Source of the DNA: an uncultured Verrucomicrobia subdivision 3 bacterium
GTDB taxonomy: Bacteria; Verrucomicrobiota; Verrucomicrobiia; Limisphaerales; UBA8199
Reading direction: 5' to 3'
Length of the DNA: 34,189 bases
Assembly: GCA_903913865.1 (NCBI GenBank)
Contig: CAIWMU010000203.1
Coordinates: 1-34,189 of the forward strand
This document shows positions 357 to 6,387 of this stretch, one piece after another. The notes below the pieces were generated by a model. The model ran no database searches. It saw only the letters and a program-made list of their open reading frames with translations, and was not told the DNA's origin. Both the position numbers and the translations under genes were made by a program. The first letter of the stretch is position 1, and the number at the start of each line of letters is the position of its first letter.

Positions 357-1874
357 CTACCCTTCAGGAATGCGCCCTGTGTGTGGCAGGGCAGGAGCCG
401 CGGTGGAGGATGATGCGGAGGCAGGGTCTGAGGACACTGTGGGGTGTGTTGGCAGTCGCAGGGTGAAGGTGGTGCCTTTGCCCAGTACGGTGGCCACGGA
501 AAGGGTGCCGCTGTGGGCTTCGACGATGGCTTTTGTGATGGCCAGGCCAAGTCCCGTGCTGCCAGCGGCACTGGAGCGGGCTTTATCGGCGCGGTAGAAC
601 CGTTCAAAGATGTGCGGGAGATCCTCCGGGGCGATACCCTGGCCCATGTCGCATACCGTGAGGAGGATGGAGTCGGCTCCCGGGGCGGTTCTCACCCGGA
701 CGCTGCCTCCGGGGCGGTTGTAGTGGATGGCGTTACTGACGAGGTTGGAGACCGCCTGACCGAGTTGTCCCTCGTTGCCCTCGCATTGTGCCGGTTCGAG
801 GTCCAGGTGCAGAGAAAGGCCCTTTCCGTCAGCGAGAGGGCGCAGAAGTTCCACCGAGTCGCGGGTGATGCGGTCCAGATGGCACGTTTTCTTCAACGCA
901 TCCGCCCGGCCCGAGTCCAATTCAGCCAGGGTGAGCAGAGCCTCGGTGAGGCGGCGCATGTGGCGTGCGGCGCGACGGCTGGCCTCGAAGGCTTCGCGGT
1001 GCTCCTCGTTCGGGCAGTCGCTGTCGAGCCCGTTTTGCGCGTGGGTCAGCATCACGGTGAGAGGGGTCCGGAGTTCATGAGCGGCGTCGGCGGTGAAGCG
1101 GGCCTGGCGGGTGAAGGCGGCATCGAGGCGGGCGAAGGTTGAATTGAGGACCTGCACAAGCTGGCCGAGTTCGCTGTCCGTGTTGCTGGTCTGGATGCGC
1201 TGGGAGAGATCGCCGGTGGAGATCTTGATGGCGGTGGCGCTGATATCCGCCACCGGGCGGAGAGTGCGGGCGGAGACCCACCATCCACCGGTGAGGCCGA
1301 GCAGGAGAACCAATCCGCCGGCGCCCGCGAGCAGCCAGCCGGAGCGGTGCAGGCCTGCAAGCTCCCGGGCGATATCCCGGCCTGCGAGGATGCATACCCC
1401 CTGATGGGAGAAGTGGAAGCACTCCCGCAGGGTTCCCCGCAGGCGGGCACTGTGCGGCTCGGCCACGGGTTCAGGGCAGCGCACGTCGCTTGGCACCGCG
1501 TCGGATCGCGACAGGATCCGCCCATCGGGAAGCCATACGACGTAATAGAAGACGCTGCCGAATGGGCCTTCGAACGTCCGCATCTCCCGTTCCGGCAAAT
1601 GGACGTCCCTCAGGCCCGGTGGAAGCGGTGCCTCCAGCCTCGGCCGGGTTGGAGCTTTCCCGGGATGTGTGGCATCGGCGGCGGTTTCGATGCGAAGTTC
1701 CAGTTCCTGATCGATGCGGCTCAGGATGCGCAGTTCGAGCTCCTGGTCGATACGGCTCAGTTCATCCGCCCGCTGCAGTTCCCAGGCGGTGAACCCAAAG
1801 CCGGTGAGCACGAGAGCGAGGAGCAATCCGTGCCACAGCTGGAGCCGCCAGCGGATGGAGTGGAAGAATTTCAT
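357..1874 (-). CDS. Sensor histidine kinase, CusS/QseC-like
   Basis: Membrane histidine kinase, 505 residues, that should autophosphorylate and pass phosphate to the adjacent regulator. The N-terminus holds a short cytoplasmic stretch and a transmembrane helix (about residues 10-30), then a periplasmic region, a second transmembrane helix near 180-200 (GAGGLVLLLGLTGGWWV), and a HAMP linker. The H-box AAHELRTPL puts the phospho-acceptor at His266. The ATPase domain shows the N-box NLVSNAIHYN, the G1 box DMGQGIAP, the F-box IFERFYRADKA and the G2 box GSTGLGLAI. The start overlaps the regulator stop as ATGA, indicating translational coupling. Odd feature: twelve residues (LSRIDQELELRI) just after the first helix are tandemly duplicated. 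The signal sensed cannot be read from the sequence; heavy-metal-type kinases share this layout. Confidence 0.93.
   Translation of the reverse strand: MKFFHSIRWRLQLWHGLLLALVLTGFGFTAWELQRADELSRIDQELELRILSRIDQELELRIETAADATHPGKAPTRPRLEAPLPPGLRDVHLPEREMRTFEGPFGSVFYYVVWLPDGRILSRSDAVPSDVRCPEPVAEPHSARLRGTLRECFHFSHQGVCILAGRDIARELAGLHRSGWLLAGAGGLVLLLGLTGGWWVSARTLRPVADISATAIKISTGDLSQRIQTSNTDSELGQLVQVLNSTFARLDAAFTRQARFTADAAHELRTPLTVMLTHAQNGLDSDCPNEEHREAFEASRRAARHMRRLTEALLTLAELDSGRADALKKTCHLDRITRDSVELLRPLADGKGLSLHLDLEPAQCEGNEGQLGQAVSNLVSNAIHYNRPGGSVRVRTAPGADSILLTVCDMGQGIAPEDLPHIFERFYRADKARSSAAGSTGLGLAITKAIVEAHSGTLSVATVLGKGTTFTLRLPTHPTVSSDPASASSSTAAPALPHTGRIPEG
1689..1760 (-). repeat. 36-bp in-frame tandem duplication in the kinase gene
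   Basis: Two adjacent 36-bp units (1689-1724 and 1725-1760) differ at five positions, yet both encode exactly the same twelve residues, LSRIDQELELRI. All five differences are synonymous. The repeat lengthens the juxtamembrane segment right after transmembrane helix 1, which has a heptad-like Leu/Ile pattern. Confidence 0.9.
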
Positions 1875-2521
1875 TCGATGCAGTAGCCCTCGCCCCGGCG
1901 TGTGACGATGAAGTCCTGCCCGAGCTTTTTGCGAAGGCGCATCACCTGGACATCGAGCACGTTCGAGAGCGTGTCCTCGGTGTCATCCCCAAGATGTTCG
2001 TAGAGCGCGGCGCGGGTGACGACCTCGCCGCGGTGCAGGGCGAGGTATTCGAGGAGGACATACTGGTAGGCGGTCAGGCTGACCCGCTGGCCAGCGCAGG
2101 TCACAGTGCGGGCGACGGTGTCAATGTGCACATCGCCGATGTCCAGGGTCGTCCCGGATCGTCCGGCGCTGCGGCGGATGATGGCACGCAGGCGGGCGAA
2201 CAGCTCCGGGGGGTCGAACGGTTTGACGAGATAATCGTCCGCGCCGGCGTCGAGGCCGCGCACCCGGTCCGTGCTTCCGCCCCGGGCGGTGAGCATGAGG
2301 ACAGGGGTGGCCTTTGTGGCGCGGAGGCGGGCAAGCAGGTCCCAGCCATTCAGGCGGGGGAGCATGACGTCGAGGATGATGGCGTCGTAATCGGTGGACC
2401 CGGCTTTGTAGAGCCCCTCCTCACCATCGGCAGCGGTATCAACGGCGTAGCCCTGCTTGCGCAGTGCCCGTGTGAGGCCGGCGAGCAGATCCGGTTCATC
2501 TTCGACCAGAAGGAGTCTCAT
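1871..2521 (-). CDS. OmpR/PhoB-family response regulator
   Basis: DNA-binding response regulator of 216 residues when started at the ATG beginning MRLLLVEDEP. A longer frame reaches 2563, but its extra 14 residues precede the canonical receiver start. The receiver domain has the acidic pair E7/D8 with E9, phospho-acceptor Asp51 (IILDVMLP), Thr78 (MLTAR) and Lys100 (YLVKPF), so it is fully canonical. Residues about 125-215 form a winged-helix Trans_reg_C domain (LTAYQYVLLEYLALHRGEVV, then the recognition region SNVLDVQVMRLRKKLG and the wing VTRRGEGYCIE). It is the first gene of a two-gene operon with the kinase. The divergent region upstream contains tandem hexamers suited to binding of dimers of this class, so autoregulation is likely. 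Confidence 0.95.
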   Translation of the reverse strand: MRLLLVEDEPDLLAGLTRALRKQGYAVDTAADGEEGLYKAGSTDYDAIILDVMLPRLNGWDLLARLRATKATPVLMLTARGGSTDRVRGLDAGADDYLVKPFDPPELFARLRAIIRRSAGRSGTTLDIGDVHIDTVARTVTCAGQRVSLTAYQYVLLEYLALHRGEVVTRAALYEHLGDDTEDTLSNVLDVQVMRLRKKLGQDFIVTRRGEGYCIE

Positions 2522-2606
2522 GTGCCTGGGGTCGTTCTTAACAGGGTTGCCACCCCGAGTCACGCTGTTTGACGTTTATCATGCCGGGGATTGTATCAGC
2601 ACAGAG

Positions 2607-2674
2607 ATGAACAGGGGATGAACGGCCCGGTAAAAAAATCCATTCCAATCCATCGCCGTTCATGCAGTGTTCAT
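2607..2674. promoter_or_regulatory. Candidate operator for the response regulator
   Basis: Four copies of one hexamer lie between the divergent regulator and pseudopilin genes. ATGAAC occurs at 2607-2612 and 2618-2623, and its reverse complement GTTCAT occurs at 2658-2663 and 2669-2674. Within each pair the start-to-start distance is exactly 11 bp, the spacing of OmpR/PhoB-class direct-repeat boxes. The two pairs face each other. This supports one operator module per divergent promoter; binding is inferred. Confidence 0.6.
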
Positions 2675-2697
2675 GTGCGGTGTGGTAGGCTGGGCGC

Positions 2698-3549
2698 GTG
2701 AAAAGTGAAAAAAACATGCCGTGCCGTTTGAGGCGGGCCTTCACGCTGATCGAACTGCTTGTCGTGATCGCCATCATCGCGATTCTCGCCGCCATGCTGC
2801 TGCCCTCCCTGAGCCGGGCCAAGGCCAAAGCGCAGGCGGCCGGGTGTGCGAGCAATTTCAAACAGCTCCAGATCTGCTGGCAGATGTATACGGATGATTC
2901 CGGGGACCGCCTGCCGGGGAACACAGCGATGAACGACGGGGACATCGGCAACCGGGAGAACTGGACGGCTGACCCCTTCTCGTGGATGCAGGGGAATGCG
3001 TGGACCGACCCGAACCCCACCAACCTGCAGAGCGGTGTGCTCTACCGCTACAACAAGTCGGAGAGGATTTACCGGTGCCCGGGGGACAAGTCCACCGTCC
3101 GTGACCAGGGCTTGATCCAGCGGTTCCGGAGCATCTCCATGAGCATGTATATGAATTTCCGGAACAAACAGGATGATCCCGGTTATGACATGTGCTGGCA
3201 CCGGCTGGCGCAGGTTCAGCGCCCCGGGCCGAGCAAGGCGGCCGTCTTCATTGAAGAAAACGAAAAGAGCATCCAGCAGAGTGCGTTCGCCATCAATGCA
3301 CCCGACGATCTCACCATGTTCAACACCCCCTTGTGGACGTGGATCAGCTTTCCAGCCACACGCCACGGTAATTCCGGACTGCTCAGCTTCGCAGATGGGC
3401 ATGTCGAGACGTGGCGGTGGCTGGAAGGGAACACGATGGCTGTTGCCCAAAAGAACGACTGGATTGTTGTGCAGCCTGCTGTGGCGAGGACCGACCGCGA
3501 CCTCAGCCGGTTCTTCAAGGTCGTGCCCGAGAAGGTGCCGGTGCAATAA
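2698..3549 (+). CDS. H-X9-DG pseudopilin (type II secretion/type IV pilin-like)
   Basis: Pilin-like secreted protein, 283 residues. The N-terminus has a class III prepilin signal: a basic leader ending in RRA, then [20 protein letters not shown], with cleavage expected before the Phe and the conserved Glu at mature position 5. The remainder is the globular domain typical of the large Planctomycetes/Verrucomicrobia families. The C-terminal motif is exact: His, nine residues (GNSGLLSFA), then Asp-Gly. The start is GTG at 2698; an ATG at 2716 would still keep a basic leader (MPCRLRRA). It is divergent from the two-component operon and shares its candidate operator, so it may be a target. Such proteins occur in many copies per genome; whether this one builds a pseudopilus or only anchors at the membrane cannot be told. 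Confidence 0.9.
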
Positions 3550-3624: not shown

Positions 3625-6387
3625 TTATTCGATCACGAACCAGGTTACACCCCGGGCTGGCACTTCGACGGGGAGTTGGATGCGGTATTCCCGGTCCAGC
3701 TTCAGCTTTTGGCTCTTTCCATCCTGTTCGCGCAGCGTGGCGGTTGTGGTTTTGCCGGTGTAATAGAGGGGAATCTGGAGGGTCTTGCGGACCTTGTTCT
3801 CCAGGGGGTTGTAAACCATCAGCAGGCCCTTTTCCTTTCCACAGGGGTTGACGTGGAGGATGTAGTCCAGGTCCCGTCCATCGGCGCGGCGGAGGTGGAG
3901 GATGTCGGAATTGAGGACTTCGCGATGTTTCTTGTAGAAGTCCACCCAGTGTTTGACGACCGCCATTGTGGAGTCTGTGTCGTAGAGGCGCGGGCCGCGA
4001 TAACAGGCCATGACCCCGGCACCGAAGAGGTTGGCGAGGCGCTGCCCGTAATGATCCAGATGTTCGCTGAGCGGCTCGATCGTTGCAGCGGCGCCGCCCC
4101 CCTGATATTCCGTGAGCGGGACGAACATCCAGCCCATGGAAGGGGCCTTTTCCCAGGTACCGTCGAAGATGTTCTGGCGCTCGATGATTTCCTGGAATTC
4201 ACGGGGGAGGGACCAGTTCACCTCCCGGTAGCCCATGCCGGTTTTTGTGCTGCCCGAGAGGAAATACCAGTCGGGGATGTTGAGGTAAACCCCATTGGCG
4301 CGGCACCATTTGTAGAGATCGGTGATGGCCTTCCACTGGACCCACTGGGAATCCTCAAACCCCTTGTGAAACGGATGGTTCGTGGAGGCGCAGGTGTCGC
4401 CCGGGTAGGAGCCATCATGCTCCAGCACTGCGAGACCGGTATTGTCCATGAAGGTTTTCAGGTGCTGCAGGTAATCCTGCCCCCAGGTTGCGCCAAGGCA
4501 GGGGGCGACACCGAATGCCGTGGGGCCGACCGTGTTATCTGCGGGAGTTGCGGCGCCCCGGCTGGCGCAGAGGGAATAGCCGCCGAGGACGATGCCTTTG
4601 GATTTTGCGTAATCGGCCAGGGTTTTGAGCCCGGCCTGATAATCCTTGTCGCGGCTTTCGAAATTGAACCCGCTGCCGAAGGTGAGGATGACCATCTCGA
4701 ATCCGACAGCGGCGCACTGGTCGATCGCAAGTTTCACAGCCTCGGGCCGGGCGCTTCGCACATGCATGAGGATGGGGTTCTCGGTTGCCCACGGGGCGAT
4801 GGCGCGATACATGCGGCGCTGGGCGAGACCCTTGCGCTCGCGGTCGGTGCTGTCCTGGGCGAGTTCAAAGGCGCGGAAGCTTTCGAAGCTGCCACCGGGG
4901 GCGATTTCCTGATCGGGACCCTGCGGCGGTTTGCATTCCAGGAGGCAGGGGGTGTTGCGGTTGTAATTCACCTGCGAGAGGTATTCAGGGTCTGATCCCC
5001 AGCGCACGCCCCGGTTGCCCCCCTTGCTGCCCATCCCACCGAAGGCGTAATCCGTCTCCACGTAGAGATTCGGGAGTTCCCAGCGGGGGTTGTCATCCAC
5101 GTAGGATTCATATTCAACGGTGGCGAGGACCTCGCTGATGAAGGAGTTCAGCCGGACAGGGCGGGTGGTGCCATTGCGAATAACGATCCATTTGGAGATC
5201 AGCGGCAGCCCGTCAAACAGTTCATAGTGGACCTCCACGGTGACTTTCCCCTGACCGGACGGGGCGGATTTCACCAGTGGTTTCTCGCTCTGGCCGGGGC
5301 CGTAAATGCGGAAGGCCCGGACGAAGCATCTTTCAAGGTCACCATCGGGGGAGAAATCATCGGCGCGGCCATCGCGGGAAAGTTTTCCGATGCGCACGGC
5401 TGTGGGGTTGCCCGGGGCGGGGGTGTCGCCAATCCGCACCCATTTCCTGCCATTCAGGGAAGCATCGCACAGGATTTTGCCGCTGCGCAGGGTCATTCTG
5501 AGGGTGTAGGGTTTGCCGCCCTCCATTTTTCCAAGCTCCTTTTCCCCACCGCCCCCCAGCAGGCCGAAACAGCCGTGGCCGGGGCGGAGGTAAAACCGCA
5601 CAACCTTCTCCCCGAACACCAGGGCGATGCCCGGACCCCAGCTCGCGCTTTTGTCCGTGCCCGGATCCACCTGACACTCCACGGTGGTGGCCTCCTGTGG
5701 CCAACTGCGCTCTGCGAAGGCGTGGGTGTTCTCCCGGGCCATGATCTCGCCGGGCTTGCCCTCATTTTGAAAGGAGGTGCGGGCATCCTTTTTGCTCAGG
5801 AACAACTTCCACTCTTTGGAGAGTTCGGTGAAGTCGTCGGAGACCATGGCCTCCCGGGGCTGGTCCACTCCGCCGAAACCATCCGGGGATTGAAATTCGA
5901 GGGTGAGCGAGACACCGGGCGGGGGCCAGGGGGCGTCGGCAGGCATCCACTCCGTCCGCTTCTTCCACGCGAAGCGGGCAGTGGTCCGTCCTGTCTTGAA
6001 TCCGGTGAACTGGAAGGCATCCGGATTTGCCTCCAGCGAATTGATCCATCCGGGCTTGAGGAAGTTCTGGACCGGCTGGGTTCCAAGCCCCCCGACTTCG
6101 CAGGGGACCCCATCCAGCACGAGCCGCGCCTCGGGGCGGACGGCACGGATGATGGACTCCCCGGACATCAGGTTCTCGAAGGAAACCGTGGCAGCGTTCG
6201 GCTCCAGCCGGAACACGCGGCGGATCAGGCCGTTCTCGAGCGTGATCTCCCGGTTGGTCTGACCCGGGTGGATTTCCGCCTTGAAGGTGGATCCATCCAG
6301 CATCCAGTCGGCGGCATGGCCGGTCGTGAGGGTGGTGATGAGCCATCCCGTGGCGAGGATCAGTGATTTAACATGTCTCTGTGTCAT
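3625..6387 (-). CDS. Secreted clan GH-D-like (alpha-galactosidase-like) glycoside hydrolase
   Basis: Exported enzyme of 920 residues, probably a retaining alpha-glycosidase. Residues 1-25 are a Sec signal ending TTGHA. An N-terminal super-beta-sandwich (about 30-182 and 366-520) is interrupted by a second beta-sandwich at about 185-365 that resembles concanavalin-like modules (DDFTELSKEW at its start, FVRAFRIYGPG at its end). A TIM barrel follows (about 550-810), with VILTFGSGFNFES, VLEHDGSYPGD near residue 655 and NIPDWYFLSG near 704. The Asp of LEHDG is the best candidate nucleophile by analogy with the GH27/GH36 strand-4 Asp. A C-terminal beta domain ends in VPARGVTWFVIE. Exact family membership is uncertain; GH36 or an unclassified relative is possible. 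It is monocistronic as far as seen, and convergent with the pseudopilin gene. Confidence 0.75.
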   Translation of the reverse strand: MTQRHVKSLILATGWLITTLTTGHAADWMLDGSTFKAEIHPGQTNREITLENGLIRRVFRLEPNAATVSFENLMSGESIIRAVRPEARLVLDGVPCEVGGLGTQPVQNFLKPGWINSLEANPDAFQFTGFKTGRTTARFAWKKRTEWMPADAPWPPPGVSLTLEFQSPDGFGGVDQPREAMVSDDFTELSKEWKLFLSKKDARTSFQNEGKPGEIMARENTHAFAERSWPQEATTVECQVDPGTDKSASWGPGIALVFGEKVVRFYLRPGHGCFGLLGGGGEKELGKMEGGKPYTLRMTLRSGKILCDASLNGRKWVRIGDTPAPGNPTAVRIGKLSRDGRADDFSPDGDLERCFVRAFRIYGPGQSEKPLVKSAPSGQGKVTVEVHYELFDGLPLISKWIVIRNGTTRPVRLNSFISEVLATVEYESYVDDNPRWELPNLYVETDYAFGGMGSKGGNRGVRWGSDPEYLSQVNYNRNTPCLLECKPPQGPDQEIAPGGSFESFRAFELAQDSTDRERKGLAQRRMYRAIAPWATENPILMHVRSARPEAVKLAIDQCAAVGFEMVILTFGSGFNFESRDKDYQAGLKTLADYAKSKGIVLGGYSLCASRGAATPADNTVGPTAFGVAPCLGATWGQDYLQHLKTFMDNTGLAVLEHDGSYPGDTCASTNHPFHKGFEDSQWVQWKAITDLYKWCRANGVYLNIPDWYFLSGSTKTGMGYREVNWSLPREFQEIIERQNIFDGTWEKAPSMGWMFVPLTEYQGGGAAATIEPLSEHLDHYGQRLANLFGAGVMACYRGPRLYDTDSTMAVVKHWVDFYKKHREVLNSDILHLRRADGRDLDYILHVNPCGKEKGLLMVYNPLENKVRKTLQIPLYYTGKTTTATLREQDGKSQKLKLDREYRIQLPVEVPARGVTWFVIE

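Follow-up and report, generated by a model that had tools for sequence, protein, structure and literature searches.

The intergenic region between a response regulator gene and a divergently transcribed pseudopilin gene, on the stretch of DNA analysed here (34,189 nucleotides, termed the window), is predicted from sequence comparison to be a divergent double operator-promoter of the adjacent response regulator, a reading to which a probability of approximately 0.85 is assigned. As more than 90 related loci were found to keep both sites beside the same regulator, it is very probable that this protein activates its own operon as well as the neighbouring gene. The features concerned are as follows.

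357 to 1874, minus strand: sensor histidine kinase with HAMP, HisKA and HATPase_c domains, its start and the regulator stop codon overlapping by 4 nt.
1871 to 2521, minus strand: response regulator of the OmpR/PhoB class, 216 aa, recognition helix LDVQVMRLRKKL, assigned with Pfam (Response_reg and Trans_reg_C) and by its orthologues.
2590 to 2595, minus strand: -10-like hexamer TACAAT, 11 nt downstream of direct repeat 1.
2607 to 2623, minus strand: direct repeat 1, GTTCAT-CCCCT-GTTCAT, half-sites at 2618-2623 and 2607-2612, directed towards the response regulator gene.
2624 to 2657, no strand: spacer of 34 bp with an A7 tract between the repeats, its length varying among orthologues.
2658 to 2674, plus strand: direct repeat 2, GTTCAT-GCAGT-GTTCAT, half-sites at 2658-2663 and 2669-2674, directed towards the pseudopilin gene.
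2686 to 2691, plus strand: -10-like hexamer TAGGCT, 11 nt downstream of direct repeat 2.
2698 to 3549, plus strand: H-X9-DG pseudopilin, 283 aa, with a GTG start, an alternative ATG at 2716 and the Pfam domain N_methyl.

The regulator and kinase genes form a minus-strand operon. The regulator possesses the receiver (PF00072, 104 bits) and winged-helix (PF00486, 71.2 bits) domains that place it in the OmpR/PhoB class, while the divergent gene product was identified as prepilin-type from its N-terminal methylation motif (PF07963, 33.5 bits) and the H-X9-DG motif near its C-terminus. The kinase was also seen to carry a tandem repeat, LSRIDQELELRI-LSRIDQELELRI, right after its first membrane segment (approximately aa 39-63), of which the kinase of relative G132 (L310) has one copy. 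Convergent with the pseudopilin gene lies a gene for a large secreted protein resembling glycoside hydrolases (3625-6387, minus strand).

Both repeats lie in a gap of 176 bp, bounded by the ATG of the regulator (2521, minus strand) and the GTG of the pseudopilin (2698). A first-pass annotation of this DNA had described pairs of hexamers with an 11-bp period facing each other in this gap, and both pairs were found to be exact, ATGAAC-N5-ATGAAC occurring as ATGAACAGGGGATGAAC at 2607-2623 and GTTCAT-N5-GTTCAT as GTTCATGCAGTGTTCAT at 2658-2674. What is added here is their direction and their placement: read as GTTCAT, each repeat is oriented outward, to its own gene, and lies in direct orientation exactly 11 nt from a -10-like hexamer, the one on the pseudopilin side (TAGGCT) being a weak -10. 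An operator of the OmpR/PhoB class is marked by a direct repeat of two half-sites with a period of about 11 bp and by the placement of this repeat, in direct orientation, roughly one helical turn before a -10; both features were identified in the window.

Among the first 30 loci that were read, the exact GTTCAT repeat was found in the window only, and conservation was revealed only by the looser form TTMA-N7-TTMA (M = C/A). Clear orthologues of the regulator (57-81% identity) were identified in 124 of the 320 genomes searched in the order, the genome of the window included and nearly all of them drafts; these orthologues stand well apart from other regulators, which share about 50% identity or less. 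The DNA beyond the regulator start was then compared for 130 loci of the same order, consisting of the window and 129 orthologues (approximately 57-81% identity). The repeat with a period of 11 was present towards the regulator in 118 of these 130 loci, on the side facing the divergent gene in 97 and on both sides in 94, while periods of 6-10 and 12-22 were each found in 13 loci or fewer. On the divergent side, the distance between the second half-site and a -10 of the form YANNNT was exactly 11 nt in 74 of 79 sites, and in 44 of those 74 an ATG or GTG followed exactly 6 nt after the -10, usually with AAAA next. The spacing on the regulator side was 11 nt in 63 of 118 loci and 10 nt in a further eight. 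These results support two suggestions of the first-pass annotation, that the repeats form an operator arrangement of the OmpR/PhoB class and that they serve both the regulator operon and the divergent gene, with period, outward orientation and distance to the -10 being conserved with the regulator across the order. Conservation in homologous intergenic regions, which had been proposed as a check, was thus observed among regulator orthologues, although no relative with the same gene pair was found.

The family consensus can be written as CTTMAY-N5-CTTAA(G/T), which resembles a PmrA box, while the typical site of the nearest subgroup is (A/G)TTCAT-N5-(A/C/G)TTAAT, to which the GTTCAT form of the window belongs. 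The half-sites of the window diverge from the family consensus, and the presence of GTTCAT in all four is unique among the loci read. A search with the canonical box and its -10 (CTTMA-N6-CTTAAGGT-N9-YANNNT) returned approximately 70 matches, distributed over 28 of 97 genomes, and the reversed control returned none. Matches were found in 25 of the 35 genomes with the regulator versus three of the 62 without it (Fisher p = 4e-12), and among these three is a genome (G018) in which the beginning of a regulator gene runs up to the limit of the DNA that was read (L300). The TTAAT form was identified in nine genomes, all nine of which encode the regulator. Among 80 more distant regulators (41-60% identity), the site with its -10 was found only in L062, a relative from Planctomycetota with 56% identity, where the regulator is preceded by the same box at the same spacing of 11 nt. 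The arrangement may therefore not be confined to the order.

Comparison to characterized systems points to an operator of a known kind. The PmrA box consists of two hexamers separated by 5 bp that are bound head to tail (PMC3973317), and the PmrA (BasR) box of Salmonella and Klebsiella, a direct repeat of CTTAAG and NTTAAT (PMC3973317), is like the CTTMAY-N5-CTTAAG/T of the relatives described here. Residues His193, His195 and Asn196 of PmrA have been proposed for base-specific recognition (PMC3973317); by helix position, in an alignment made by eye, they correspond to residues 192, 194 and 195 of the present regulator. Unlike the PmrA box, the window has GTTCAT in all its half-sites, two boxes back to back and a probably leaderless target, and the regulator scored 188.5 bits against the NCBIfam equivalog for PmrA (BasR), below its cut-off of 330 bits. 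The best NCBIfam subfamily for both proteins was that of the CusR/CopR heavy-metal regulators and their kinases (TIGR01387, TIGR01386). However, neither was assigned to it, as both scored below the curated cut-offs (205.8 versus 279.2 bits for the regulator and 253.1 versus 292.55 bits for the kinase).

In Salmonella, the distance from a PhoP box to the -10 downstream of it is 12 or 11 nt, and tests at 12 nt showed that the box works in direct orientation only (PMC3335776). Architecture I of these promoters, which includes the phoP promoter itself, has a hexanucleotide direct repeat with a 5-nt separation in direct orientation (PMC3335776), as is the case here, and with its 11-nt spacing to the -10 the box of the window is placed as in PhoP-activated promoters. 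Differences are that the PhoP hexamer is (T/G)GTTTA and that promoters of architecture I carry a single box each. In leaderless promoters of Deinococcus-Thermus, the start codon directly follows a -10 motif and no Shine-Dalgarno sequence is needed (PMC12340547). The -10 adjoins the ORF in these promoters as the -10-like hexamer does here, but in the present case a putative activator box is coupled to it at a fixed spacing. No report of leaderless promoters in Verrucomicrobia was found in the papers searched.

From these comparisons, a mechanism can be proposed in which the phosphorylated regulator would bind as a head-to-tail dimer to each of the 11-bp direct repeats and, standing in place of a -35 element, would recruit RNA polymerase to the -10 located 11 nt downstream. 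One promoter would give rise to the regulator-kinase mRNA, resulting in positive autoregulation, and the other to a pseudopilin mRNA starting at or beside the GTG codon. This GTG lies 6 nt after TAGGCT, and the pseudopilin mRNA is for that reason probably leaderless; the gene begins GTGAAAA. The operator would be ancestral to the regulator subfamily, with the pseudopilin being a lineage-specific target in place of other secreted-protein genes. For a two-component system encoded in the above 124 of 320 genomes of the order, the arrangement offers precise predictions of binding site, promoter and start site.

The first-pass annotation had also expected the region to offer a general clue to the control of pseudopilin genes, and here it went too far. 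Box-bearing genes of relatives, both divergent and distant, were found to encode YHYH, EF-hand, cytochrome-like, CotH/LTD-like, PQQ-like and receiver-only proteins (identified with Pfam for a few and by eye for the others), and no pilin was found among those read. A conserved pairing of regulator and pilin was sought in relatives without success, the pairing being seen once, in the window. The site was absent from 29 pilin-homologue loci of other genomes, no box was found in the DNA before the 18 nearest pilin homologues where this was read, and genome-wide scans gave no matching site at the other pilin homologues of the window's genome (25 matches scored in all). Since the targets of relatives are non-pilin and pilin homologues elsewhere lack the site, the pseudopilin appears, as far as sampled, to be a target only in the lineage of the window. 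It may be seen as a single, concrete example of a gene that has come under a two-component promoter rather than as a general rule. Judged on sequence, the operator is conserved and of a known kind, and the earlier account was right on mechanism and too broad on pseudopilins. No report of a two-component regulon of YHYH and CotH proteins was found in the papers searched.

Statements on the whole genome of the window are derived from pattern searches of a 267-contig draft assembly. The genome search for ATGAAC-N5-ATGAAC that the first-pass annotation had proposed (equivalent to GTTCAT-N5-GTTCAT) returned five exact copies. The two in the gap of the window have a -10; of the other three, which are without one, two lie inside ORFs (L001, L002) and one is near a contig edge, overlapping short ORFs only (L005), and a larger regulon based on exact hexamers was therefore dropped. 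The combined site and -10 pattern TTMAT-N6-TTMAT-N11-YANNNT occurred in the 6.27 Mb genome only at the two places in the window, with no matches for the reversed control. The canonical box was identified upstream of two genes of this genome, one for a secretin-domain protein (contig C42) and one for an LTD/CotH protein (contig C96). The former (L306, 2097-3341) encodes a Secretin_N-domain protein and has a CTTAAGG box 11 nt before a -10, with a GTG 6 nt after the -10, while the latter (L307, 1568-7282) encodes a protein of 1904 aa. Contig C42 also carries a second copy of the regulator family (L306, 4568-5251), an open frame running from a receiver into a kinase fragment with no DNA-binding domain, which is either a decayed gene or an assembly fault.

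Other explanations of the region were considered. It is improbable, though this is the strongest of the alternatives, that the only working operator is the one on the regulator side, for autoregulation, with the divergent site being a relic of a former target and the pseudopilin beside it uncontrolled. The pseudopilin is indeed not a conserved target, a secreted PKD/Lcl_C protein occupying the divergent position in the nearest relative (G132, 81% identity), and the DNA upstream of pilin homologues elsewhere is unrelated and lacks the site. However, decay would be expected of a relic, whereas repeat 2 is exact and its spacing to the -10 has been kept, and the pseudopilin GTG occupies precisely the start position that is conserved in relatives and opens with the same GTGAAAA. 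Somewhat less probable again is that the regulator acts from these sites as a repressor of one or both promoters. A protein bound upstream of a divergent pair can repress, and sequence by itself does not tell activation from repression, but sites 11 nt upstream of the -10 in direct orientation have the geometry of PhoP activation (PMC3335776), and no sigma-70 promoter with a -35 was found, as is expected of activator-dependent promoters.

Binding by a different OmpR-class regulator of the same genome is considered very unlikely. Five further matches to the regulator are encoded there, the best with 42% identity, but the sites travel with this subfamily across the 130 loci and were nearly absent, as described above, from regulators at 41-60% identity. 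The notion of a functionless hexamer repeat that arose by chance draws on the presence of GTTCAT-N5-GTTCAT inside genes elsewhere in the genome and on 20,000 dinucleotide-preserving shuffles of the 176-bp gap, 3.3% of which contained a single exact hexamer repeat at 11 bp. Two such repeats of the same hexamer, facing each other, arose in only 0.055% of these shuffles, and chance is contradicted by the finding that period, orientation and distance to the -10 are conserved across the order, leaving it with a negligible probability. The reading of the region as an operator is well supported by the sequence data.

The recognition helix of the window's regulator contains QVMR in place of HVSN or HVF[N/S/G] and is unique among 118. 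Residues Q192, M194 and R195 were considered as the cause of the GTTCAT form, a proposal weakened by locus L145, which has GTTCAT-N5-GTTCAT on the regulator side together with an ordinary helix (HVFN), indicating that a change of helix is not needed for GTTCAT. A wider proposal, put forward tentatively and more doubtful than not, is that of an undescribed and widespread regulon of the order, with back-to-back PmrA-like boxes and leaderless mRNAs for secreted proteins. In the lineage of the window, the helix (QVMR) and boxes would have changed together and the system been rewired to the pseudopilin; with a canonical box at the secretin-domain gene as well, it might now control part of a type II secretion-like machine.

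A match was also observed between residue 194 and the last base of the second half-site. Serine at this position accompanied a second half-site ending in G (TTAAG) in 69 of 70 rows with Ser, and Phe, Met, Leu or Tyr accompanied one ending in T (TTAAT) in 45 of 48 such rows. This match amounts to approximately three changes on the tree and is thus not statistically independent evidence, making it supportive, rather than proof, of the link between regulator and site. It nevertheless offers a natural series in which regulator and site appear to have changed together.
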